From Sneathiella sedimenti (GTDB lineage Bacteria; Pseudomonadota; Alphaproteobacteria; Sneathiellales; Sneathiellaceae), in contig NZ_JAFLNC010000004.1 of assembly GCF_017313765.1 (NCBI RefSeq), positions 310,001 through 374,000 of the forward strand: 64,000 nt of DNA. Direction: 5' to 3'. Within the stretch, counting starts at the first letter, position 1, and the number at the start of each line of letters is the position of its first letter. Both the position numbers and the translations under genes were made by a program. The notes under the pieces were generated by a model. It did no database searches, had not been told where the DNA came from, and saw only the letters and a program-made list of their open reading frames with translations. Positions 8,793-38,340 of the stretch are shown here, piece after piece.

Positions 8793-10340
8793 ATGCAACG
8801 CATTGGCATTGATGTTGGTGGAACCAATACGGACGCGGTTCTTGTTGATCAGGACAAGGTGGTCGGCGCGGTCAAGACCCCGACCACACGCGACGTCACC
8901 GGGGGTGTCCGTAAGGCGCTGGAAGACCTGATCGCGCTGGTCGGGCCGGAGGCGAAGAACGCGAGCTCGGTGACGGTTGGGACCACGCATTTCCTGAACG
9001 CCGTGGTCGAGCGGCGCCGTCTGAACAAGGTGGCCGCGGTGCGGATTTCCTTGCCGGCGTCGGCGAGCCTGCCTCCTTTCGTCGACTGGCCGGAGGATGT
9101 GGCCGCGATCGCCAATGGCGGTCATTACATGGTGCGCGGCGGTCATGAATATGACGGGCGGGAAATTGTCCCTCTCGATGAGGAAGAACTCGCGCGGGTC
9201 GGCCGCGAAATCCGGGAGGCGGGGATCACCTCTGTCGGGATCAGCGCCGTCTTCTCGCCGCTGAATGCGGAGTTTGAAGAACGCGCCAGAGAGATTATCG
9301 AAATAGAATGCCCTGGTGTGCGCATCACCTGTTCGCACAGCCTGGGCCGGCTTGGCCTGCTGGAGCGGGAGAATGCGACGCTTCTCAATGCCGCATTACT
9401 TGATCTCGCGGAGGAGGCGACCAGCGCCTTTCAGGAGGCGCTTGAGCAGCTTGGCATCACTGCGCCGCTTTATATTGCGCTCAATGACGGGACGGTGACG
9501 AACGCGGAGATGACACGGAAATTCCCGGTCTATTGTTTCGCCTCCGGTGCGACCAACAGCATGCGCGGCGCGGCATTCCTCTCCAAGATCGAGAATGCCA
9601 TCGTCTGCGATGTCGGCGGCACAACGACGGATATCGGCTCCCTCGTCAACGGCTTCCCGCGGGAGGCCAACAGCACGGTTACCGTCGGCGGGGTTCGCAC
9701 CCTATTCCGGATGCCGGACCTTATCTCCATTGGTATCGGCGGCGGCACGCGGGTGCATGACGATCCGCTGGATGTCGGCCCCGACAGCGTCGGCTTCCGC
9801 CTGACGGAGGACGCTCGGGTCTTTGGCGGCGCGCAAATGACGCTCACTGATGCGGCGGTCTCCAAAGGGTTGATGGAGGCAGGGGACGCATCCAAAATTG
9901 CCGATCTCGAGGCCGGCTATGTGGATGATATCCTCGCCATCGTGCATGAGCGGATCGCCAGCAATGTGGACCGGATAAAGACCGAGGCGACGGAAGTGCC
10001 GCTGATTGCGGTGGGGGGTGGTGCACCGCTGATCCCGACCGAAATCCCGGGTATTTCGCGGGTGCATCATGTCGAGAATTACGCTGTTGCCAATGCGGTC
10101 GGGGCGGCCATCGCCCAGATCAGCGGCGAGGCGGACCAGGTGTTTCAGGGGCTCAGCCGCGATGAAGCGCTGGCGGAAGCCCTGAAGATCGCCGAGGAGA
10201 AGGCGATCAGCTCCGGCGCGGCAGCGGATACGCTGAAAACCATCGAGATGGAAGATCTGCCCATCGCCTATCTTCCCGGCCATGCCATCCGGGCGCGGGT
10301 GAGGGTGATCGGGGATATTGCCGCACTCTCGGAGTCATAA
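8793..10340 (+). CDS. Hydantoinase A / oxoprolinase family ATPase
   Basis: 515 aa, the shorter class of hydantoinase-A proteins that travels with DUF917. ATPase motifs of the actin-like fold are visible: RIGIDVGGTNTDAVL at residues 3-17, CDVGGTTTDIGSL near residue 272 and IAVGGGAPLIP near residue 406. Family members open or phosphorylate cyclic amide rings (hydantoin, 5-oxoproline) using ATP. The start at 8793 is chosen over 8784 because AAGGA ends at 8783, directly against the upstream ATG but 9 nt from this one. It is co-transcribed with the DUF917 gene. No hydantoinase-B partner is present in this locus. Confidence 0.9.
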   Translation: MQRIGIDVGGTNTDAVLVDQDKVVGAVKTPTTRDVTGGVRKALEDLIALVGPEAKNASSVTVGTTHFLNAVVERRRLNKVAAVRISLPASASLPPFVDWPEDVAAIANGGHYMVRGGHEYDGREIVPLDEEELARVGREIREAGITSVGISAVFSPLNAEFEERAREIIEIECPGVRITCSHSLGRLGLLERENATLLNAALLDLAEEATSAFQEALEQLGITAPLYIALNDGTVTNAEMTRKFPVYCFASGATNSMRGAAFLSKIENAIVCDVGGTTTDIGSLVNGFPREANSTVTVGGVRTLFRMPDLISIGIGGGTRVHDDPLDVGPDSVGFRLTEDARVFGGAQMTLTDAAVSKGLMEAGDASKIADLEAGYVDDILAIVHERIASNVDRIKTEATEVPLIAVGGGAPLIPTEIPGISRVHHVENYAVANAVGAAIAQISGEADQVFQGLSRDEALAEALKIAEEKAISSGAAADTLKTIEMEDLPIAYLPGHAIRARVRVIGDIAALSES

Positions 10341-29626: not shown

Positions 29627-30106
29627 ATGTTTCGCCGTTACATGTTCTTGCTGGCACTCATTTTGCCGATTGCCGGTTGTGCAGCACCGGAGCCGATTGG
29701 TCCGGTCACCTATCGGCATTTTGATTCAGGGTATCAGAAAACAGACCTTCTTTTACGCGGAAGCTTCACGGGAACAAGTACGGAAGTCTATTTACGCGCC
29801 GGGAAATCGGGCGCGAACCTCGAAGTTTGCGGTTTCTATATCAGACGGGGTGGCAATGAGGATAGCTGGATTGTGGATTGGCTCGAGGACGCGGAGGTTA
29901 CCCTAAATGGTGAGGGAATTGTCTCCGCCGGATTTATAAATTCCCAATATCAGCCTGATTCCGCAAAAGCCGCCTGCGTTGTGACAGCCACGAAATACCA
30001 GGAAGACCAACCAAACGGATTTCTTACAATTTCAGAAGGTTGTCACAGTGTCATCTTGTTCGGGTTTCGGCGCAGCACATTCTGCTTCGAAAGGACGAGC
30101 TTTTAG
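29627..30106 (+). CDS. Small predicted lipoprotein, unknown family
   Basis: 159 aa. The N terminus has a charged start, a hydrophobic core and a lipobox LPIAGC (Cys18), so it should be lipid-anchored in the envelope. The rest is beta-rich with several cysteines (CGFYIRRGG, a CVVTATK segment, GCHSV) that may form disulphides. I do not recognise a family. The ATG has GGGGGGT upstream. It is preceded by its own promoter and followed after 80 bp by another lipoprotein gene. Base composition looks lower in GC than in the flanking ilvD and xthA genes, so it may be newly acquired. Confidence 0.65.
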   Translation: MFRRYMFLLALILPIAGCAAPEPIGPVTYRHFDSGYQKTDLLLRGSFTGTSTEVYLRAGKSGANLEVCGFYIRRGGNEDSWIVDWLEDAEVTLNGEGIVSAGFINSQYQPDSAKAACVVTATKYQEDQPNGFLTISEGCHSVILFGFRRSTFCFERTSF

Positions 30107-30186
30107 CCGAGGTTTAAGTGGCATCACAAGTCTTTAAAAAATACTGTTCGCCTCTTTGGGCGCTGTTAGAGAACAGGGGGTAGTCA

Positions 30187-30987
30187 GTGTCTAATGCTAA
30201 ATCAGTCTGTCGGTATTTAGTCGCAATCGCATTTCTTTTCCTTCTCTCCGCCTGCCAGACGCCTCAGAAGAGTGTGCCTGTCTTCAGTGATGCAGAAGTC
30301 CAGAGGATGGTGTCACTGATGGAGCAAAGCGAACTTGAAGGACGCACTTTAAGCGCAAAACAGATCAAGGCGTTTTTTGAAGGGACGAATGTTCGGGGTA
30401 TTTCTCGTTTTGGTGAAAGAATTGGCTTTTCCCTCTCCAAAGAGGGAGACAAGATGTTCGAGTTATTGGCATCTTTCTACGATGAAAACGGGAATGTAAT
30501 CCGGAAAGACGCGGGTTTCTGGTGGACGGCAGGTGACAAAAAGCTTTGCGGTAAGTTGAAATCTTATGACAGATACAGGTCACATTGCTTTATCGTTGGA
30601 TGGAAAGAAGACGAATATTTTCTGACCGATATTCGGGAGGAGCAAGTTTACTGGTTTAAAATTGTCAGCCTATATGATCCCTCGGGGAGCGCCAAGCCCA
30701 ATGCCAGCAAAAGTTCGCGCGCCAGTGACAAAGAGCCAGGCGAGTATCATGTAGGGCGTATTATCGGCTATAGCGAGGTTTGTAGTGAGTTTCGCGGAAT
30801 TGCGGCTGATCCACAAATTCTTCAGACCATCAAGCAACTGTTTGGTGCCAATCCGGACTTCAAGCGTGGCTATGCCGAGTTCGACAATTTCACGGGATTT
30901 GACTTCGTGACAGGCCTGACAGAATGCGAGGAAGCGAAGGCAGGCGTTGAAAAAGCATACAGCATATTAAAGTCCAAGGGGGGCTAG
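30187..30987 (+). CDS. Predicted lipoprotein, unknown family
   Basis: 266 aa with a GTG start. The signal ends in LLSAC (Cys near residue 23), a good lipobox. The middle carries a conserved-looking block with tryptophans and paired cysteines (FWWTAGDKKLCGKLKSYDRY), then a helical C-terminal part with CSEFRGIAADPQILQTIKQL. No family is recognised. It follows another orphan lipoprotein gene at 29627 and may be co-transcribed with it. Its AT-richer sequence than that of its neighbours hints at transfer. Function unknown. Confidence 0.65.
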   Translation: MSNAKSVCRYLVAIAFLFLLSACQTPQKSVPVFSDAEVQRMVSLMEQSELEGRTLSAKQIKAFFEGTNVRGISRFGERIGFSLSKEGDKMFELLASFYDENGNVIRKDAGFWWTAGDKKLCGKLKSYDRYRSHCFIVGWKEDEYFLTDIREEQVYWFKIVSLYDPSGSAKPNASKSSRASDKEPGEYHVGRIIGYSEVCSEFRGIAADPQILQTIKQLFGANPDFKRGYAEFDNFTGFDFVTGLTECEEAKAGVEKAYSILKSKGG

Positions 30988-31003
30988 GGACGATACACCC
31001 CCC

Positions 31004-31909
31004 TCACAAACTCTTCACATATTGATGGGCGTCGGTGAGCGATAGGCCGTGAATTTCGCGCGCGAGGGCAGTGGCGCCGATGGCGTCGCCGCGACGGACC
31101 ATCTCACGGAGGCGATCGTCCTGTGCCTCCTTTGAGAGGGTGAGGAGCGGGGCCTCCTCCTCCGCTTCATCCGTCTGCGTTCGGTAGAGGCCGTCCAGAA
31201 TGGCCTCCGCCGCCGTCATCGATGGGGTGAGACGGGTCTTGCGCGTTGTCCAGTCGATACGGATCCCGCCGCTGTCAGGCAGAAATTTAATATCCGCCCC
31301 CTTGGCGCGGGACGTTACGCCCTTGATCCATGTCGAGGTCTTGCGACGGCGCTCCTCATTGAGGGCCGTCTCTATCGGTGCGAGATCATTCCCGTAAAGG
31401 GCCACGTTGAGCCATTGCTCATTCTGGAGGTGTTTATCTTCCGGGATGTCCCTATCGCCGATCATGCGGGTTTTCTGCCCTATGAACCGCATCCTGCGGA
31501 TTTCCCGGGCAGGGATAAAGGCGACGATGGGATCGGCGGCGTTCAGGCGATAATCGCTGTAATGGCGGAGTTTGAGATAAAGCCCCTCCGGCACGGCGCG
31601 CAGGGTCCAGTTGCTCTTTTTCATGGCAGCAAGAGCGGAGGAGAGAAAGACAAGGCCGACGAGAGTGCAGATCAGGACAGTCGCGCTGCAGATGAACCAG
31701 ATAAAGCTAACAAAGACCATGCCGAAGAGGGAGCCGCCCGTGCTGAACAGGTCATTCATCGCGAGAAATGCCGGAAAAGCGACACTCCAGCCAAGAAGGA
31801 ACAGCGCGACGATCAAATGCCCTTTCCAGGACATTTTCGCGGTCAGAAGCGCCGGGTTTTTCAGCGCCTCCTCCTCAGGGATCAACTCAATTTTGCCATA
31901 ACGGCCCAT
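31004..31909 (-). CDS. Membrane protein with L7/L12-like C-terminal tail
   Basis: 301 aa. Two strong membrane helices lie near residues 30-52 and 62-92, and a long cytoplasmic region follows. The last 28 residues (GDAIGATALAREIHGLSLTD, then AHQYVKSL) match the helix-turn-helix pattern of the ribosomal L7/L12 C-terminal domain, which is often reused at the end of small bacterial membrane proteins. The middle part is basic (KLRHYSDYRLNAADP) and looks like a PH-like or DUF domain, not identified. It is convergent with the preceding lipoprotein gene (30187-30987) and lies upstream of xthA on the same strand. Function unknown. Confidence 0.65.
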   Translation of the reverse strand: MGRYGKIELIPEEEALKNPALLTAKMSWKGHLIVALFLLGWSVAFPAFLAMNDLFSTGGSLFGMVFVSFIWFICSATVLICTLVGLVFLSSALAAMKKSNWTLRAVPEGLYLKLRHYSDYRLNAADPIVAFIPAREIRRMRFIGQKTRMIGDRDIPEDKHLQNEQWLNVALYGNDLAPIETALNEERRRKTSTWIKGVTSRAKGADIKFLPDSGGIRIDWTTRKTRLTPSMTAAEAILDGLYRTQTDEAEEEAPLLTLSKEAQDDRLREMVRRGDAIGATALAREIHGLSLTDAHQYVKSL

Positions 31910-31974
31910 ATGTCGTGCACCTTAGGTCTTTAGATGCGCGCAGGATAGCCGGAATTCCTTAATATTCTTTTGAG

Positions 31975-32742
31975 TCAGTCCGCGAGATCGACCCAGATCG
32001 GCGTGTGGTCGGAGGGCTTTTCCTGTCCGCGCGGGCCCTTGTCGATGCCGACTTCCGTCATCCGGTCGGTCGCTTGCGGCGAGAGGAGGAGATGGTCGAT
32101 GCGGATGCCGTGATCCTTGGCCCACGCCCCGCGCTGATAATCCCAGTAGGTGTAGTTCACCTCGGTCGTGAAGGCGCGGTAGGCGTCGGTATAGCCAAAA
32201 TTGAGAAGCTGGCGGAAACGGTTGCGGCTCTCCGGGCGGGTGAGGGCGTCACCCTCCCAGGCCTTGGGGTCGTAGCAATCCTCATCCTGCGGGATCACGT
32301 TGTAGTCGCCGGCGAGGACGGTCGGCTCCTCCAGAGTGAGGAGGTATTTCGCGCGGGCGATCAGCCGGTCCATCCAGCCCAGCTTGTAGGGGAACTTCTC
32401 CGTATCCGTCGGGTTGCCGTTCGGCAGGTAGATGGAGGCGATGCGGACATTATTGACGGTCGCCTCGATATAGCGGGCCTGTTCGTCCGTGTCGTCGCCC
32501 GGCAGGCCGCGCATGATATCCTCGATCGGGTGCTTGGAGAGGATTGCCACCCCGTTGTAGGTTTTCTGGCCGTGGGTCTCGACATTATAGCCCAGTTCCT
32601 CGACCTCCAGCCGCGGGAAGTTGTCGTCAATGACCTTCAACTCCTGCAGGCAGAGCACATCGGGGGCGTAGTCCTTCAGGTAATCGACAAGCCGCGGCAG
32701 GCGCGCTTTCACCGAATTGACGTTCCAGGTGGCTATCTTCAT
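31975..32742 (-). CDS. xthA: Exodeoxyribonuclease III
   Basis: 255 aa. The EEP-family active site is clear: WNVNSVKARLPRL at the start, CLQELKVIDDNFP (catalytic Glu, near residue 34), IYLPNGNPTD, and the C-terminal SDHTPIWVDL (Asp-His pair). It acts as AP endonuclease and 3'-phosphodiesterase/exonuclease in base-excision repair. An intrinsic terminator of the upstream erpA gene ends about 11 bp before this start, so either readthrough or a promoter overlapping the terminator must drive it. The ATG follows a weak GGGGTAAGAG site. Confidence 0.96.
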   Translation of the reverse strand: MKIATWNVNSVKARLPRLVDYLKDYAPDVLCLQELKVIDDNFPRLEVEELGYNVETHGQKTYNGVAILSKHPIEDIMRGLPGDDTDEQARYIEATVNNVRIASIYLPNGNPTDTEKFPYKLGWMDRLIARAKYLLTLEEPTVLAGDYNVIPQDEDCYDPKAWEGDALTRPESRNRFRQLLNFGYTDAYRAFTTEVNYTYWDYQRGAWAKDHGIRIDHLLLSPQATDRMTEVGIDKGPRGQEKPSDHTPIWVDLAD

Positions 32743-32753
32743 CTCTTACCCCA

Positions 32754-32786
32754 CAAAAAAGCCCGGTCTTCCGCCGGGCCTTTTTT
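32754..32786. terminator. Intrinsic terminator between erpA and xthA
   Basis: GCCCGG-TCTTCCG-CCGGGC stem flanked by AAAAAA on one side and TTTTTT on the other, so it works in both directions. On the minus strand it ends erpA transcription and sits immediately upstream of the xthA start. Confidence 0.9.
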
Positions 32787-32807
32787 CTAACATTTTTAGG
32801 GAGTCAA

Positions 32808-33158
32808 TCAAATGGCAAATGACGATCCGCAGGAGCAGGAAGCCGTCGCGTTCGGGTTCTTGATCTGGAACGACGCGCCGATCATGTCCTCGACAAAATC
32901 GATTTCCGATCCCGCGAGATACATCAAGGACAGCTGGTCGACAAGCAGGGTCGCCCCCTTGTTAATGACCGCTACATCGTCCGGGTTTTGCGTATCTTCC
33001 AGGTCGAAACTGTACTGAAAACCGGAGCAGCCGCCGCCATTCACCGCGACGCGCAGCATTTTCTTGTCGGACTTCATTTCCTCGACAATGGCATTGATCC
33101 GGTCGGCCGCCGATTCTGACAGTTTGACAGGGGGTTCCATTGTATCCATGACAGACAT
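32808..33158 (-). CDS. erpA: Iron-sulfur cluster insertion protein ErpA
   Basis: 116 aa A-type Fe-S carrier. The three conserved cysteines are Cys44 (NGGGCSGF) and Cys108/Cys110 (SCSCGSSF), exactly as in the HesB/IscA/ErpA family. It delivers Fe-S clusters to target enzymes such as IspG. In many alphaproteobacteria this gene sits beside dgt and argS; here it is divergent from the ArgS-like gene. In-frame Met4 and Met7 are alternative starts, and the Shine-Dalgarno is weak. Confidence 0.9.
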   Translation of the reverse strand: MSVMDTMEPPVKLSESAADRINAIVEEMKSDKKMLRVAVNGGGCSGFQYSFDLEDTQNPDDVAVINKGATLLVDQLSLMYLAGSEIDFVEDMIGASFQIKNPNATASCSCGSSFAI

Positions 33159-33277
33159 TGTATTTAAATTCCCAAATTACAAAGACAACTGGCCTTCGTT
33201 ATAGAGACTATATAGCAAATGATGTATTAATCCTAAGCATGTTTGTCAATCGACGGTCCCGAAAAGTATCCTGCATA

Positions 33278-34303
33278 ATGTCCATCAGCTATATAACCCA
33301 GGCCCGTACGGCGCTTCAATCTGCCCTCGATGCGGTTGAGCTGCCCGAACCGGGGGCGAAAGCGGCGTTACAGCGGGATATTACCCTGCGTCCGCCAAGG
33401 GAAGTGTCCTATGGTGATATTTCAACAAATGCCTGTATTATACTGAAATCAAACAAAAATATTGACTTCGAAAAGACATCAAAGGCGGTTGTCTCGGCCT
33501 TGAAGGAGTTGGATGGGATCGCAACTGTCCGGCTGGAAGATAACGGCTATATCAACCTCTTTTATTCTCATAAATACTGGTTAAATAATATTATACCGGT
33601 ATTGAAAGAAGGGTCTGACTTCGGGCTTGCCGGAATGGCAAAAGAAAAATGCGAAAGTCCCGTTCCGGCAGAGGTTCTCGATCTCGCCAGCTACCGCGAA
33701 CAGGCAAATGCAGAGGCGCTGGAGCGTATCGCGGCGCTCATGGGGGCGGAAGTAGAGCGCGTAACCCTGCCGCAGCGGGCGGCGGCAGGTTATCCGCTTG
33801 CCTCCGCGATTGCGAAATGCAGCGAGGGGAAAACGCGATTTGCCGTTCTTGCCAATCCGCCCGGCTTTATTGATGCGTTCAGCCCTATTTTAGCCATAGA
33901 CCGGCATTATGATAACCCGGTTTTCGCGATCCCTTATGCGCGCCTGATGCTGCACCGGCTCGGGGCGACAGCAGAGGAGGCGAAAGCCGGGATAAGCGAC
34001 GGGGTGGATATGTCAGTTCTGAAATTGCCGGAAGAGGTGGCGCTGGCGCGGCGAATAAGCGACTGGCCGCTGGCGCTTGAGCGTGCGGTAAGGAAGCGGG
34101 ACGCATTTTATCTGGCCTCTTTCCTCCAGGAGCTTTCCTTGCTATTTTTCCGTCTCAATAAGCGGGTGCATCTTATATCGTCGACCTATCTGACGGCGGA
34201 GGCGGAGCGGTCGGCACGTGTTGGGTTGCTGGGCGCGCTCGATGTGATTTTAATCGGCGGCGTGACACTTCTCGGCGTTGATACAGTAAAGGAGTATGGT
34301 TAA
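33278..34303 (+). CDS. ArgS-like protein lacking the catalytic core (tRNA-binding domains only)
   Basis: 341 aa. Residues about 1-105 match the ArgS N-terminal additional domain (DITLRPPREVSYGDISTNA, then NGYINLFYSHKYW). A stretch near residues 185-225 (KTRFAVLANPPGFIDAFSP and onward) aligns to the part of ArgS just after the KMSK loop, ending in DNPVFAIPYARLML, and the rest is the DALR anticodon-binding domain (EEVALARRISDWP near residue 250; LGALDVILIGGVTLLGV near residue 318). The Rossmann core with HIGH and KMSK motifs is missing; normal ArgS is about 580 aa. The frame is open throughout. The 5' part is AT-rich. It occupies the usual argS position before the SPOR gene. The start is not certain (39 nt upstream is an alternative). 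A functional argS must lie elsewhere. Confidence 0.8.
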   Translation: MSISYITQARTALQSALDAVELPEPGAKAALQRDITLRPPREVSYGDISTNACIILKSNKNIDFEKTSKAVVSALKELDGIATVRLEDNGYINLFYSHKYWLNNIIPVLKEGSDFGLAGMAKEKCESPVPAEVLDLASYREQANAEALERIAALMGAEVERVTLPQRAAAGYPLASAIAKCSEGKTRFAVLANPPGFIDAFSPILAIDRHYDNPVFAIPYARLMLHRLGATAEEAKAGISDGVDMSVLKLPEEVALARRISDWPLALERAVRKRDAFYLASFLQELSLLFFRLNKRVHLISSTYLTAEAERSARVGLLGALDVILIGGVTLLGVDTVKEYG

Positions 34304-35179
34304 GTGACTGGCGAAGATGACTACCTGGACGACGACTTCTACGACGGCGATGACGAGCCACGCTTCAGCCGCAAAAAATGGATCGGCGGCATTCTCGCCC
34401 TCCTGATAATCGGCGGTTTCGGAATTGGTATCTGGTATGCCTATGACCAGGGCGTGAAAAAAGGCGTTCAACTCGCCCCGCCCATCATCAGCGCCGACAC
34501 ATCACCCGTCAAGATAAAGCCTGACGATCCGGGCGGGATGGACATTCCCAACCAGGACAAGCAGGTCTTTAACGTTCTTCAATCCGGCGATGCGCCCGAA
34601 AAGGTGGAAAAGCTGATGCCGCCGCCGGAAGACTCGATAAAGGATGAAACGGCAGAGCAGGCGCAGGATTCCGCGATGACAACCGCGGAAAAGGCGGCCG
34701 ATGAAAGCAAGCTTGAAACCCTGATCGAGAAGGCAACGAAAGACGCCCCGGCGGCCGATGCAGCAGCGTCGCAGGCGGCTGACAAGGCGGCGGGCGGCGA
34801 GAGCGCCTCTAACGCGATCAAGTTGCCGGAGGTTGTTGTCCAGAAGGTGGAGGCCAAGCCGGTTGAGGAAAAGACCGAGGTGGCAGCGGCGTCTGCCCCT
34901 GCAAAGGTCGAGGAGCCAAAGACCGGCGGCCCGTTCTATCGTGTTCAGGTTGGCTCTTTCCGGTCACCTGATGCGGCTGAAAAACAATGGTCGACGCTGT
35001 CCAGCAAATATAAGTCGCTACTCTCCGGCCTCACCTATCGGGTGCAGGACGTTGCGGTCAAGGACAAGGGCACCTATTACCGCTTGCAGCTTGGCGCCTA
35101 TGACAGCCGCGATGGGGCCAACAAGCTGTGCAGTGACCTGAAGGCACAAAAGCAGGATTGTCTCGTTGTCAGTGGTTGA
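34304..35179 (+). CDS. SPOR-domain cell-envelope protein
   Basis: 291 aa, GTG start directly after the previous stop. The N-terminal 25 residues are cytoplasmic and acidic, then comes one membrane helix (IGGILALLIIGGFGIGIWYA), a long Ala/Glu/Lys-rich periplasmic linker and a C-terminal SPOR domain (YRVQVGSFRSPDAAEKQW, then TYYRLQLGAYDSRDGANKLC; about residues 211-289). SPOR domains bind septal peptidoglycan with stripped stem peptides, so a role in division or wall remodelling is likely. It usually follows argS and precedes nagZ in alphaproteobacteria, as here, and it overlaps the start of nagZ. Confidence 0.9.
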   Translation: MTGEDDYLDDDFYDGDDEPRFSRKKWIGGILALLIIGGFGIGIWYAYDQGVKKGVQLAPPIISADTSPVKIKPDDPGGMDIPNQDKQVFNVLQSGDAPEKVEKLMPPPEDSIKDETAEQAQDSAMTTAEKAADESKLETLIEKATKDAPAADAAASQAADKAAGGESASNAIKLPEVVVQKVEAKPVEEKTEVAAASAPAKVEEPKTGGPFYRVQVGSFRSPDAAEKQWSTLSSKYKSLLSGLTYRVQDVAVKDKGTYYRLQLGAYDSRDGANKLCSDLKAQKQDCLVVSG

Positions 35180-36206
35180 TTTAACCAACTGCCGCTCTGT
35201 CATTTTTGGCTGTGAAGGAACGACTCTATCCGCCGCGGAGAAGAAATTCTTCAAGGCGGAGCAGCCTGTCGGCTTTATTCTGTTTTCCCGGAATGTAGAG
35301 ACGCCCAAACAGCTCAAGAAACTCGTCAAATCCCTGCGCACCGCGGTTGGCCGACCCGATGCCCCGGTGCTGATCGATCAGGAGGGTGGCCGGGTGCAGC
35401 GCTTGCGGGCGCCGCACTGGTTCGAGGCGAAGTCTTTCGGCCATTTCGGGGATCTTTACCAGACCGATCCGGAGCGGGCAATTGAGGCGCTGCGCCTGAC
35501 CGCGCGCCTGATCGCGGCAGACCTGCGGGAGGCGGGGATCACTGTCAACTGCACCCCCTGTCTCGACCTTCACCTGCCGGAGACGGTGGATGCCATCGGC
35601 AATCGCGCCTTCGCCGACAACCCGCAGGTTGTCGCCCGTCTCGGCGCGGTGGTGGCGGAGGAAATGCTGACCGCCGGGATCATTCCCGTGGTCAAGCATA
35701 TGCCGGGCCATGGCCGGGCCACCATCGACAGCCATCATGCCTTGCCTCATGTCGGCGCGCCGCATGATACCCTGCAGGAAACGGATTTCGCCCCCTTCAA
35801 GACACTCTCCGTGCTCCCCTGGGGCATGACCAGCCATATTGTGTTTGACGCCATCGACCCGGATCACCCGGCGACCCAGTCCGCTGCCATTATCAAGGAC
35901 GTTATTCGCGGCGAGATCGGCTTTAGCGGGCTGCTCCTGACCGATGACCTTAATATGGAGGCGCTTTCTGGCAGCCTGGCGGAGCGGGCGACGGCCGCGC
36001 TGGAGGCCGGTGTGGACATCGTGCTTCATTGCTCGGGCGTGCTGACGGAGATGCAGGAGTTGGCGGCGGTCTGCCCGCCGCTGACGGAGGAGGCGCAGGC
36101 GCGGATTGAACTTGGCAACCGGGTATTTGATCACACGCCGGACAAGATAGACGCGAAGGCGGATCTCGCGCGGCTTAACGATCTTCTGGAAACGGACATC
36201 GCCTGA
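35166..36206 (+). CDS. nagZ: Beta-N-acetylhexosaminidase NagZ
   Basis: 346 aa glycoside hydrolase family 3 enzyme of peptidoglycan recycling, cutting GlcNAc from muropeptides in the cytoplasm. Landmarks are IDQEGGRVQRLR (near residue 74), the KHMPGHGRATIDSHH motif (near residue 178, with the Asp-His dyad) and LTDDLNMEAL (catalytic Asp, near residue 260). A TTG start overlapping the upstream SPOR gene by 14 bp is taken because AGGA lies about 8 nt before it; a GTG at 35172 is the alternative. It is one base from overlapping the M50 protease gene, so coupled translation is likely. Confidence 0.94.
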   Translation: MSVVDLTNCRSVIFGCEGTTLSAAEKKFFKAEQPVGFILFSRNVETPKQLKKLVKSLRTAVGRPDAPVLIDQEGGRVQRLRAPHWFEAKSFGHFGDLYQTDPERAIEALRLTARLIAADLREAGITVNCTPCLDLHLPETVDAIGNRAFADNPQVVARLGAVVAEEMLTAGIIPVVKHMPGHGRATIDSHHALPHVGAPHDTLQETDFAPFKTLSVLPWGMTSHIVFDAIDPDHPATQSAAIIKDVIRGEIGFSGLLLTDDLNMEALSGSLAERATAALEAGVDIVLHCSGVLTEMQELAAVCPPLTEEAQARIELGNRVFDHTPDKIDAKADLARLNDLLETDIA

Positions 36207-36892
36207 TGGACTTTGGTCATATTCTCTACCAGATTTCCGTCTGGATCGTCCCGGCGCTTGCCGCGATTACCCTGCATGAGGCGGCGCATGGCTTCGTTGC
36301 CTGGAAACTCGGCGATGACACGGCGAAGCGGCAGGGGCGTGTGACCTTCAATCCGTTCAAGCATATCGACCCGATGGGGACCATTATTATTCCGGGTATC
36401 CTGTTGCTGGTGAAGGCGCCCTTCCTGTTCGGCTATGCCAAGCCGGTTCCGGTGAATTTCGGGCGTCTGAATAATCCGCGCCGCGATATGGTCTGGGTGG
36501 CGCTGGCGGGACCGGGAATGAACTTCCTGCTTGCCTTCCTCTTCGCCCTCGGCTTTCACCTGCTGGCGTTTATGCCGGTGGGGGCCATGGCCTGGTTCGC
36601 GGAGAATTTTAAAAACGGTATTATTCTCAACGTTGTCCTTGGTGTTTTTAACCTTTTGCCACTGCCGCCGCTGGATGGCGGACGGGTGGCCGTCGGCATT
36701 CTGCCCGACAGGCTCGCCCTGCCGCTTGCCCGGCTGGAACGCTATGGGTTCTTTATTCTGATCGGCGTTATTTTCCTTCTTCCCATGATCACGCGCCAAC
36801 TCGGCATGGAGGTTGATCTGCTGAACTGGCTGTTCACCGGACCCATCAGCTATGTGGTCAATCTGATTGCCAATCTGGCGGGTCTGGGCTAG
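36206..36892 (+). CDS. Site-2 protease family (M50) membrane metalloprotease
   Basis: 228 aa integral membrane protein. The zinc motif HEAAH (residues 24-28, first helix) and the NLLPLPPLDGG motif near residues 148-158, with the third zinc-binding Asp, identify an intramembrane protease of the M50 group. No PDZ domain is present, unlike RseP. The substrate is unknown; a position next to nagZ and scpAB is normal for this family. It overlaps the nagZ stop by one base. Confidence 0.9.
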   Translation: MDFGHILYQISVWIVPALAAITLHEAAHGFVAWKLGDDTAKRQGRVTFNPFKHIDPMGTIIIPGILLLVKAPFLFGYAKPVPVNFGRLNNPRRDMVWVALAGPGMNFLLAFLFALGFHLLAFMPVGAMAWFAENFKNGIILNVVLGVFNLLPLPPLDGGRVAVGILPDRLALPLARLERYGFFILIGVIFLLPMITRQLGMEVDLLNWLFTGPISYVVNLIANLAGLG

Positions 36893-36941
36893 GCTTTTGT
36901 GATGTTGACATGGTCACGAAAAGCAGTTGAGGCGCCGCGCC

Positions 36942-37742
36942 GTGGATAAGGGATCCTTCGACGACGCGGGGCAGAAAAACACCGAGGTTATTCCGCTTCC
37001 CTCCCATGCCCTGCTGGTTGATCTTGACGGGTATGAGGGACCGCTGGATGTGCTGCTGGTGCTCGCACGGGACCAGAAGGTCGATCTTCTCAAAATCTCC
37101 ATCCTACAACTGGCGGAGCAGTATCTCGCCTTTATCGAGCAGGCCCACGCGCTCCGTCTGGAAGTGGCGGCGGATTATCTGGTGATGGCGGCCTGGCTCG
37201 CCTATCTGAAATCGCGTCTGCTGCTCCCGGTGGAGGATGATGACGGCCCCAGCGGGGAGGAGCTTGCCGATCGGCTGGCGTTCCTGCTGAAAAAGCTGGA
37301 GGCCATGCGCGAGGCGGCGGAAAAGCTGATGAACGGCACTGTCGTTGGGCGGGACAGGTTGCAGCGCGGCCGGCCGGAAGCGATCCGGATTACGCGGCAC
37401 TCAAAATATGAATGCAGTTTGCGCGACTTGTTGCAGGCCTACGCCGAACAAAAGGAACGCAAGGGCATTATCAACCCGCTGCGCCTGATGCGGGATACCG
37501 TCTTCACCGTTGAGGCCGCACTGGACCGGCTTGAAAAGATGCTCGGCACCCTGCCGGAATGGACCGATCTGATGGCCTATCTGCCGGAAAATCTCTCCGA
37601 TCCGTTCAGCCGCCGCTCGGCCCAGGCCTCGACCCTGCTGGCAAGCTTGCAGATGGCAAAAGAAGGACAGCTTGAACTACGTCAGGGCGCGACCTTTGGC
37701 CCCATTCAGGTAAAAAAGAGGAATAACGGGAATGAGTCTTGA
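36942..37742 (+). CDS. scpA: Segregation and condensation protein A
   Basis: 266 aa kleisin partner of the SMC complex. The conserved start is LVDLDGYEGPLDVLLVLARD (about residues 26-45), followed by the helical SMC-binding region (ADYLVMAAWLAYLKSRLLLP) and the C-terminal winged helix. The GTG at 36942 is chosen because GAGG lies 9 nt upstream; an in-frame TTG at 36927 is possible. It overlaps scpB by 11 bp. Together they hold chromosome arms for segregation. Confidence 0.92.
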   Translation: MDKGSFDDAGQKNTEVIPLPSHALLVDLDGYEGPLDVLLVLARDQKVDLLKISILQLAEQYLAFIEQAHALRLEVAADYLVMAAWLAYLKSRLLLPVEDDDGPSGEELADRLAFLLKKLEAMREAAEKLMNGTVVGRDRLQRGRPEAIRITRHSKYECSLRDLLQAYAEQKERKGIINPLRLMRDTVFTVEAALDRLEKMLGTLPEWTDLMAYLPENLSDPFSRRSAQASTLLASLQMAKEGQLELRQGATFGPIQVKKRNNGNES

Positions 37743-38340
37743 TCCCGAACATGTGAGAATGGCGGAAGCCCTGCTGTTTGCCTCAAAGGAACCGCTGGAT
37801 GAGGCGGCACTGGCAGAACGACTGCCCGAGGGCGCCGATATTCCAGCGATCCTCGCCACGATCGAGGAGCATTACCGGCACAAGGGGGTCAACCTGACGC
37901 GCCTTGCCGGGAAATGGACCTTTCTGACTGCGCCTGATCTTTCCTGGCTGCTGGAGGAGGAGCGGGAGACAACCCGCCGTCTCAGCCGCGCGGCGTTGGA
38001 GACCCTTGCCATTATCGCCTATCACCAGCCGGTGACCCGCGCCGAGATCGAGGAAATTCGCGGCGTCGGATTGAGCCGGGGCACCATGGACGTCCTGTTC
38101 GATGCAGGCTGGATCCGCCCGCGCGGGCGTCGCCGGACACCGGGGCGGCCGGTCACCTACGGGGTGACGGAAGACTTCCTTATTCATTTCGGTCTGGATG
38201 ACATCAAGGACCTGCCGGGCTTTGACGAGATGAAGGCGGCGGGGCTGTTGAATACGGAACCGACCGGCATCTTCAGGGACCTTGCCCGTGCCAACGAGGA
38301 GGAAGACAGCCTCGAAGACCCGGAGGAAGAGGAGCTCTAG
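37732..38340 (+). CDS. scpB: Segregation and condensation protein B
   Basis: 202 aa, two winged-helix domains. Family landmarks are AEALLFASKEPLDEAALAERL at the start, ALETLAIIAYHQPVTRAEIE (about residues 87-106), the RGVGLSRGTMD segment and GRPVTYGVTEDFLIHFGLD (near residue 138). It binds ScpA and SMC. Start overlap with scpA and the matching ribosome site CGGGA indicate coupling. The C-terminal tail is acidic (EEEDSLEDPEEEEL). A Fur-like box and an unrelated transporter follow. Confidence 0.95.
   Translation: MSLDPEHVRMAEALLFASKEPLDEAALAERLPEGADIPAILATIEEHYRHKGVNLTRLAGKWTFLTAPDLSWLLEEERETTRRLSRAALETLAIIAYHQPVTRAEIEEIRGVGLSRGTMDVLFDAGWIRPRGRRRTPGRPVTYGVTEDFLIHFGLDDIKDLPGFDEMKAAGLLNTEPTGIFRDLARANEEEDSLEDPEEEEL

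Follow-up and report, generated by a model that had tools for sequence, protein, structure and literature searches.

The genome of Sneathiella sedimenti carries, within the window examined here (the whole analysed stretch of 64,000 nucleotides, contig NZ_JAFLNC010000004.1, positions 310,001 to 374,000), a short gene on the forward strand (33278..34303, 341 amino acids plus stop, defined from the open reading frame, Pfam and orthologues) that descends from the native-type alphaproteobacterial arginyl-tRNA synthetase (ArgRS) and lacks the core of the catalytic domain. The origin, anatomy and selection of this gene are solid. In the mechanism proposed for it, a complete argS of another type would have left the native argS of Sneathiellaceae redundant; the native gene would then have lost about 230 residues from the catalytic domain and would have been retained as a separate non-catalytic protein. 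This protein would still grip tRNA, probably tRNA-Arg, via its pocket for A20 of the D loop and via a DALR domain that has been remodelled. It could serve another protein as adaptor or chaperone by presenting, protecting or marking these tRNAs, as DALRD3 delivers tRNA-Arg to METTL2. The displaced enzyme may, in this manner, have been given a new job. The passage from a displaced native ArgRS to a core-less protein acting as a putative adaptor or chaperone of tRNA, likely tRNA-Arg, is given an even chance. Its narrower version is more tentative and stands below even: one in-frame excision yielding a tRNA-Arg adaptor, a bacterial counterpart of DALRD3 that would have arisen independently of the protein NrtL at the same seam.

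The frame opens with an ATG at 33278 and runs through 341 codons without an internal stop to a TAA at 34301-34303, as the preliminary description had read it. The ArgRS N-terminal (D-loop-binding) domain PF03485 spans residues 10-95 (33305..33562, forward strand; 30.3 bits against a cut-off of 21.5) and contains Asn93, aligned to Asn84 of E. coli, and the DALR anticodon-binding domain PF05746 spans residues 236-338 (33983..34291, forward strand; 32.6 bits against a cut-off of 22.3), with SLLFF and SSxYL segments unlike those of native ArgRS. These two domains match in 13 and 14, respectively, of the 15 members of A2 at E <= 0.01. The catalytic domain PF00750 gave no match in the short protein up to E = 1, and neither an HxGH nor a KMSK motif was found in any of the 24 short homologues; among the full native-type ArgRS, 14 of 15 have an HxGH-like motif and 10 of 15 a literal KMSK. 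The short gene thus has PF03485 and PF05746, and it lacks the PF00750 domain and the HIGH and KMSK motifs of a functional arginyl-tRNA synthetase. The net charge of the protein, which is as acidic as ArgRS, is uninformative either way.

A beta-alpha-beta unit retained from the former catalytic domain follows the N-terminal domain (residues 124-163, 33647..33766, forward strand, from the predicted structure and the alignment). Within it HIGH has become DLAS (residues 135-138), succeeded by Y139 and R140. Across the short homologues this site is mostly DLxS, the two histidines of HIGH being replaced, respectively, by D in 21 of 24 and by S in 15 of 24, and the arginine that follows is R in 22 of 24 and K in the other two. 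The missing part runs from after this first beta-alpha-beta unit through KMSK and leaves an excision junction at residues 162-180 (33761..33817, forward strand), where the short protein has 19 residues against about 250 in native ArgRS. With 15 full native-type ArgRS from other alphaproteobacteria as the reference for its size, the native-type stretch has a median of 250 residues versus a median of 19 in the 24 short homologues, which puts the net loss at about 230. The removal of about 240 residues holding both HIGH and KMSK, as originally supposed, thus stands for a net loss of this order that extends through KMSK, but the unit at the HIGH site itself is kept. Beyond the junction, a post-KMSK segment leads into the anticodon region (residues 181-235, 33818..33982, forward strand); it bears the motif YDNPVFxxPYA, and its Cys181 and Ser202 are identical in all 21 short homologues counted, a set without the sister-genus homologue G024 and two partial rows.

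The surroundings of the gene correspond to those of argS in related bacteria. The conserved neighbours xth (exodeoxyribonuclease III, 31975..32742) and erpA (iron-sulphur insertion protein, 32808..33158) lie upstream on the reverse strand, and downstream, on the forward strand, are a SPOR-domain gene (34304..35179; FtsN-like below the cut-off), whose GTG start immediately follows the stop of the short gene, and nagZ (beta-N-acetylhexosaminidase, 35166..36206). The same arrangement, with erpA on one side and a SPOR gene or nagZ on the other, surrounds the full ArgRS in 10 of 15 alphaproteobacterial loci. Thus, the Pfam matches together with the erpA/SPOR/nagZ synteny sustain the initial assignment of an ArgS-like protein without a catalytic core, with the PF03485 and DALR domains kept, at the argS position. 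A scan with a single peptide pattern gave 14 named loci (9 Sneathiella, 1 Sneathiellales and 4 with broader or other labels), across which the order xth-erpA-short gene-SPOR-nagZ-rip-scpA-scpB is retained as far as the contigs extend, the rip neighbour being a Peptidase_M50 by Pfam. Thirteen named loci include the end of the gene, and in 12 of them its stop abuts or overlaps the SPOR start (SPOR starts placed by eye), which suggests translational coupling between the two genes. No tRNA-modifying enzyme was found among the seven neighbours identified. In five full-ArgRS loci inspected, a long dGTPase-like open reading frame (one of them checked with Pfam) lies between erpA and argS; in the Sneathiella genome of the window, erpA and the short gene are directly adjacent and the dGTPase gene is located elsewhere (G000:C1:75232-76482).

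A complete argS in another part of the genome, which had been suggested as a point to check, was indeed found, although of another type. This genome (3.58 Mb in 8 contigs, with a listed completeness of 100%) contains a single PF00750 match, inside a complete ArgRS of 589 residues of the other type, whose gene is flanked by those for a chaperonin and a fructose-bisphosphate aldolase. A split ArgRS acting in trans, with its core encoded elsewhere, is ruled out, since the sole PF00750 match lies inside this complete enzyme. This idea and that of an assembly error in the window together have a practically negligible probability; the same short form occurs in 21 other genomes, and so the apparent deletion is no product of assembly, a doubt that had been raised at the outset. 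Besides the window genome, 22 of 24 Sneathiellaceae possess the other-type ArgRS, which is absent in G002 and G017, and in a wider set it occurs in 47 of 288 alphaproteobacterial genomes, four of them of the window's genus, from scattered families. Because of this scattered occurrence, the other-type argS was probably acquired by transfer. Most of its carriers have no native-type match, and one genome (G069) combines pieces of the other type with a native-type match.

The joint presence of both genes in these 22 of 24 Sneathiellaceae would also be expected if the short protein were an accessory subunit of the other-type ArgRS that provides its grip on tRNA in trans, for which insect SLIMP and mitochondrial SerRS are a precedent, as outlined in PMC9437257. 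This explanation is improbable, however, given that the other-type ArgRS looks complete and that 42 of its 43 carriers outside the genus (G069 left out) have no convincing short partner. The Sneathiellaceae have kept the displaced enzyme, of which no convincing short form was detected in 42 other alphaproteobacterial genomes with the other-type ArgRS.

By descent, the short gene is a native-type alphaproteobacterial ArgRS, as its clade and its locus indicate at the level of sequence. The phylogenetic tree (327 columns, 52 rows) comprised 15 full loci of the native type (type A), 14 loci of the other type (type B) out of 48 extracted, E. coli ArgS and all but two of the 24 short rows; the partial rows L048 and L053 were excluded from the tree and from the site counts, and G024 was additionally excluded from the site counts that compare native and short proteins. 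The short rows form a clade with support of 99/98, and the short and native-type ArgRS together are supported at 100/100. The alternative in which the short rows join the other ArgRS type is rejected (p-AU 9.4e-5), and the best tree places the short clade inside the native alphaproteobacterial ArgRS. The exact place within type A is unsure, owing to the long branch of G024 (3.59) and to the odd composition of L126, one of the nearest native rows. The alignment also contains a two-residue NPVF feature, absent from E. coli and from the one type-B row compared. Since there is one clade and one junction, the excision was probably one event.

Among 60 relatives searched, orthologues of the short gene were found in 20 of the 23 genomes of the same genus, at 31-74% identity. 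The three same-genus genomes without it are 56, 65 and 66% complete, and all 20 others, at least 70% complete, have it. The orthologue of G002 is split across two contigs. Outside the genus, the genome G024, from a sister genus of the same family, has a homologue of 313 residues in the same slot, with PF03485 and PF05746 over the cut-off and no catalytic domain; it was detected weakly (E 1.7e-5 and 1.9e-4) and lacks Cys181. On a broader scale, 333 of 386 alphaproteobacterial genomes gave some match, with one contiguous match to the short gene in each of the five of this genus; among the best matches listed, where a divergent short form could have escaped notice, other alphaproteobacteria gave partial ones only, mostly to the N or C piece of open reading frames of at least 570 residues. 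A further search covered 51 genomes, selected as carriers of the other ArgRS type or for absent or weak matches; it gave matches at E <= 1 in 19 of them, with a convincing short form in G024 alone; weak matches to small fragments were seen in G045 (E 0.005, open reading frame of 221), in G215 (near a contig end) and in G375.

The short gene is under purifying selection, as judged from codon comparisons, at a level clearly weaker than that of the six neighbours measured and of the complete argS. Its median dN/dS is about 0.28 (NG86, five genomes, 10 pairs), against 0.02-0.10 by the same measure for the six neighbours, the SPOR gene left out. With six genomes and 15 pairs the ratio ranges between 0.22 and 0.38, and a 200-fold codon bootstrap over four of these gives 0.24-0.35; for the complete argS, taken from these six genomes as well, the ratio is 0.03-0.06, with dS often >1.5. 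When the short gene is divided into four segments, each has a median dN/dS of 0.15-0.30. In every named locus where the seven neighbours are present, all of them are more similar to their window copies than the short gene is to its own.

These ratios bear on the notion of a decaying remnant, offered in the preliminary description as one outcome, or of a frame kept only through translational coupling to the SPOR gene. In its favour are the fast change of the gene, the fastest among those compared, the abutting stop and start, and the orthologue of a Sneathiella glossodoripedis draft (G009, locus L053), whose start is lost via a frameshift at a run of A about position 8977 of the locus. This notion is nevertheless very improbable, since a dN/dS of about 0.28 denotes purifying selection rather than the relaxed selection expected of a relic, every segment of the gene is constrained, no stop interrupts the matched frame in any of the 20 same-genus orthologues, and the predicted fold is compact and confident. 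In the frameshifted draft the full argS is also broken (G009:C12:832019-833784), so both breaks are likely to be sequencing errors.

The short protein is predicted to keep the ArgRS fold. The AlphaFold2 model (15 rows) is compact, with a pLDDT of 90.8 and a pTM of 0.90, and its top match by VIA-align is E. coli ArgRS from a tRNA complex (5b63_C; Z 21.4, rmsd 3.7 over 315 residues, almost the full length). Ranks 2-9 are all ArgRS (Z 19.6-20.6), rank 2 being E. coli ArgRS 4oby; as this entry is tied with 5b63_C and unbound ArgRS entries are near, the match indicates the ArgRS fold and not a bound state. Likewise, all 19 Foldseek matches with E <= 0.001 are ArgRS.

In E. coli ArgRS, on the account of tRNA contacts given in PMC8975779, the residues F36, Q40, A78 and N84 hold the nucleotide A20, which stacks on F82, and N84 seems to have a central role. 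With residue numbering verified on E. coli ArgS, the A20-reading equivalent of Asn84 is Asn in all 24 short proteins, and the stacking position equivalent to Phe82 has Tyr in 21 of them and Asp in the other three. The residues G37 (23/24), D38 (24/24) and N42 (23/24) are also retained; F36, Q40 and A78 are not, and at positions 36 and 40 the native alphaproteobacterial ArgRS differ from E. coli too. When 21 short and 15 native proteins are compared, 20 positions are conserved alike and 68 are conserved in the native ArgRS only, some of them with similar residues in the short proteins; 25 of these 68 lie at residue 212 or later, and they include the positions aligned to E. coli R466, H517 and V518. 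Five positions have become fixed to a different residue in the short proteins, namely C181, S202, F291, Y304 and L305. The genome itself has 46 tRNA genes found, including four for tRNA-Arg (UCU, CCG, CCU and ACG), and in all four the GG of the D loop is followed by A (A20, placed by eye), where five other tRNAs compared have T.

From these patterns we infer that the D-loop grip was kept and anticodon recognition altered, a combination that would fit selectivity for particular tRNAs, as in DALRD3. The loss of conserved positions and the five newly fixed ones count against the tRNA-Arg reading, since they mean that the ligand may have changed. Further points against it are the loss of F36, Q40 and A78 and the occasional Asp at the stacking position in the A20 pocket, the low identity of the gene relative to its neighbours, the lack of a tRNA-modifying enzyme among the seven neighbours identified, and the missing Cys181 of G024. 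The scaffold could thus have passed to a role without tRNA, binding proteins or other nucleic acids on a new conserved surface and possibly tied to the SPOR/FtsN-like operon. Such a role, although rather unlikely, would agree with the presence of C181, S202, F291 and Y304 in 21/21 short homologues counted, where 15/15 native ArgRS have other residues, and with the abutting or overlapping SPOR gene; yet without a tRNA ligand there would be no need for the conserved Asn of the A20 pocket or for G37, D38 and N42, though these may be structural. The tRNA-binding role of the short protein, as suggested by residue conservation and the structural model, has about equal chances of being right or wrong. 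As for the tRNA-Arg-binding regulator that had been envisaged, its binding part is plausible in view of the predicted ArgRS fold and the A20 Asn, but the term regulator finds no direct support.

Core-less relatives of ArgRS are already known. NrtL is an actinobacterial protein. Its model (NCBIfam NF045898, 'ArgS-related anticodon-binding protein', 327 positions) has a core-less ArgRS layout and the same size as the short protein, which it matches in one contiguous alignment (11-336 of the protein to 9-323 of the model), and on shared ArgRS loci (G036, G052 and G203) both models break and resume within a few codons of each other. Membership in NrtL was rejected at 69.7 bits versus the curated cut-off of 340; this score is below those of the best ordinary ArgRS pieces (up to 107.8 among the matches listed), which argues against membership, and above those of the other-type ArgRS pieces of the same genome (37.4 and 35.9). 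None of 397 Pseudomonadota genomes exceeds the cut-off of NF045898. In our reading, descent at the native argS locus suggests an excision independent of that of NrtL at the same seam. If so, ArgRS would have a built-in cut site and be a repeated source of core-less tRNA-binding proteins.

Vertebrate DALRD3, as presented in PMC7237682, has a DALR domain but no catalytic motif of a synthetase; it binds particular tRNA-Arg species and directs them to modification. The short protein shares with it the DALR domain and the absence of a catalytic motif, whereas the N-terminal part of DALRD3, in that paper's description, has no recognisable domain and the short protein keeps PF03485. Insect SLIMP, a SerRS-like protein, is also a synthetase-derived tRNA binder without aminoacylation, although from a different synthetase, according to PMC9437257. 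Compared with native type A ArgRS, the short protein shares descent, locus, N-terminal domain and DALR domain but has neither HIGH nor KMSK, is about 230 residues shorter and has the five positions refixed. Literature searches for bacterial core-less ArgRS found none among the papers listed, bringing up DALRD3 and a review describing SLIMP; those for NrtL with tRNA and for Sneathiella with arginyl-tRNA found nothing, and among the papers listed for NrtL alone none concerns this protein. Papers on ArgRS yielded no usable list of residues in contact with the anticodon. Thus, the traceable history and family-wide retention of this form are without a report found in the literature searched. The history of the gene can be traced from its native locus to its core-less state, and living relatives still have the intact ancestral form at that position. 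This provides a testable example of how tRNA-binding proteins may evolve from synthetases, for which named Sneathiella strains exist.

The intergenic region from which erpA and the short gene diverge (33159..33277) is probably a divergent promoter; it contains ATGTATTAA and TTTGTCAAT, both invariant across the 10 aligned sequences. A candidate regulon box taken from the window, ATGATGTATTAATCNTA, was rejected, with one exact site in the genome and another with two mismatches; being essentially single-site, it points to no co-regulated genes. An Rfam scan of 30000-38000 gave no match. Among plasmid records, the short gene had 28 matches with less than 60% identity, of which 20 were listed; most of these have no annotated feature beneath the match, and the four with a named feature are all annotated as arginine--tRNA ligase.
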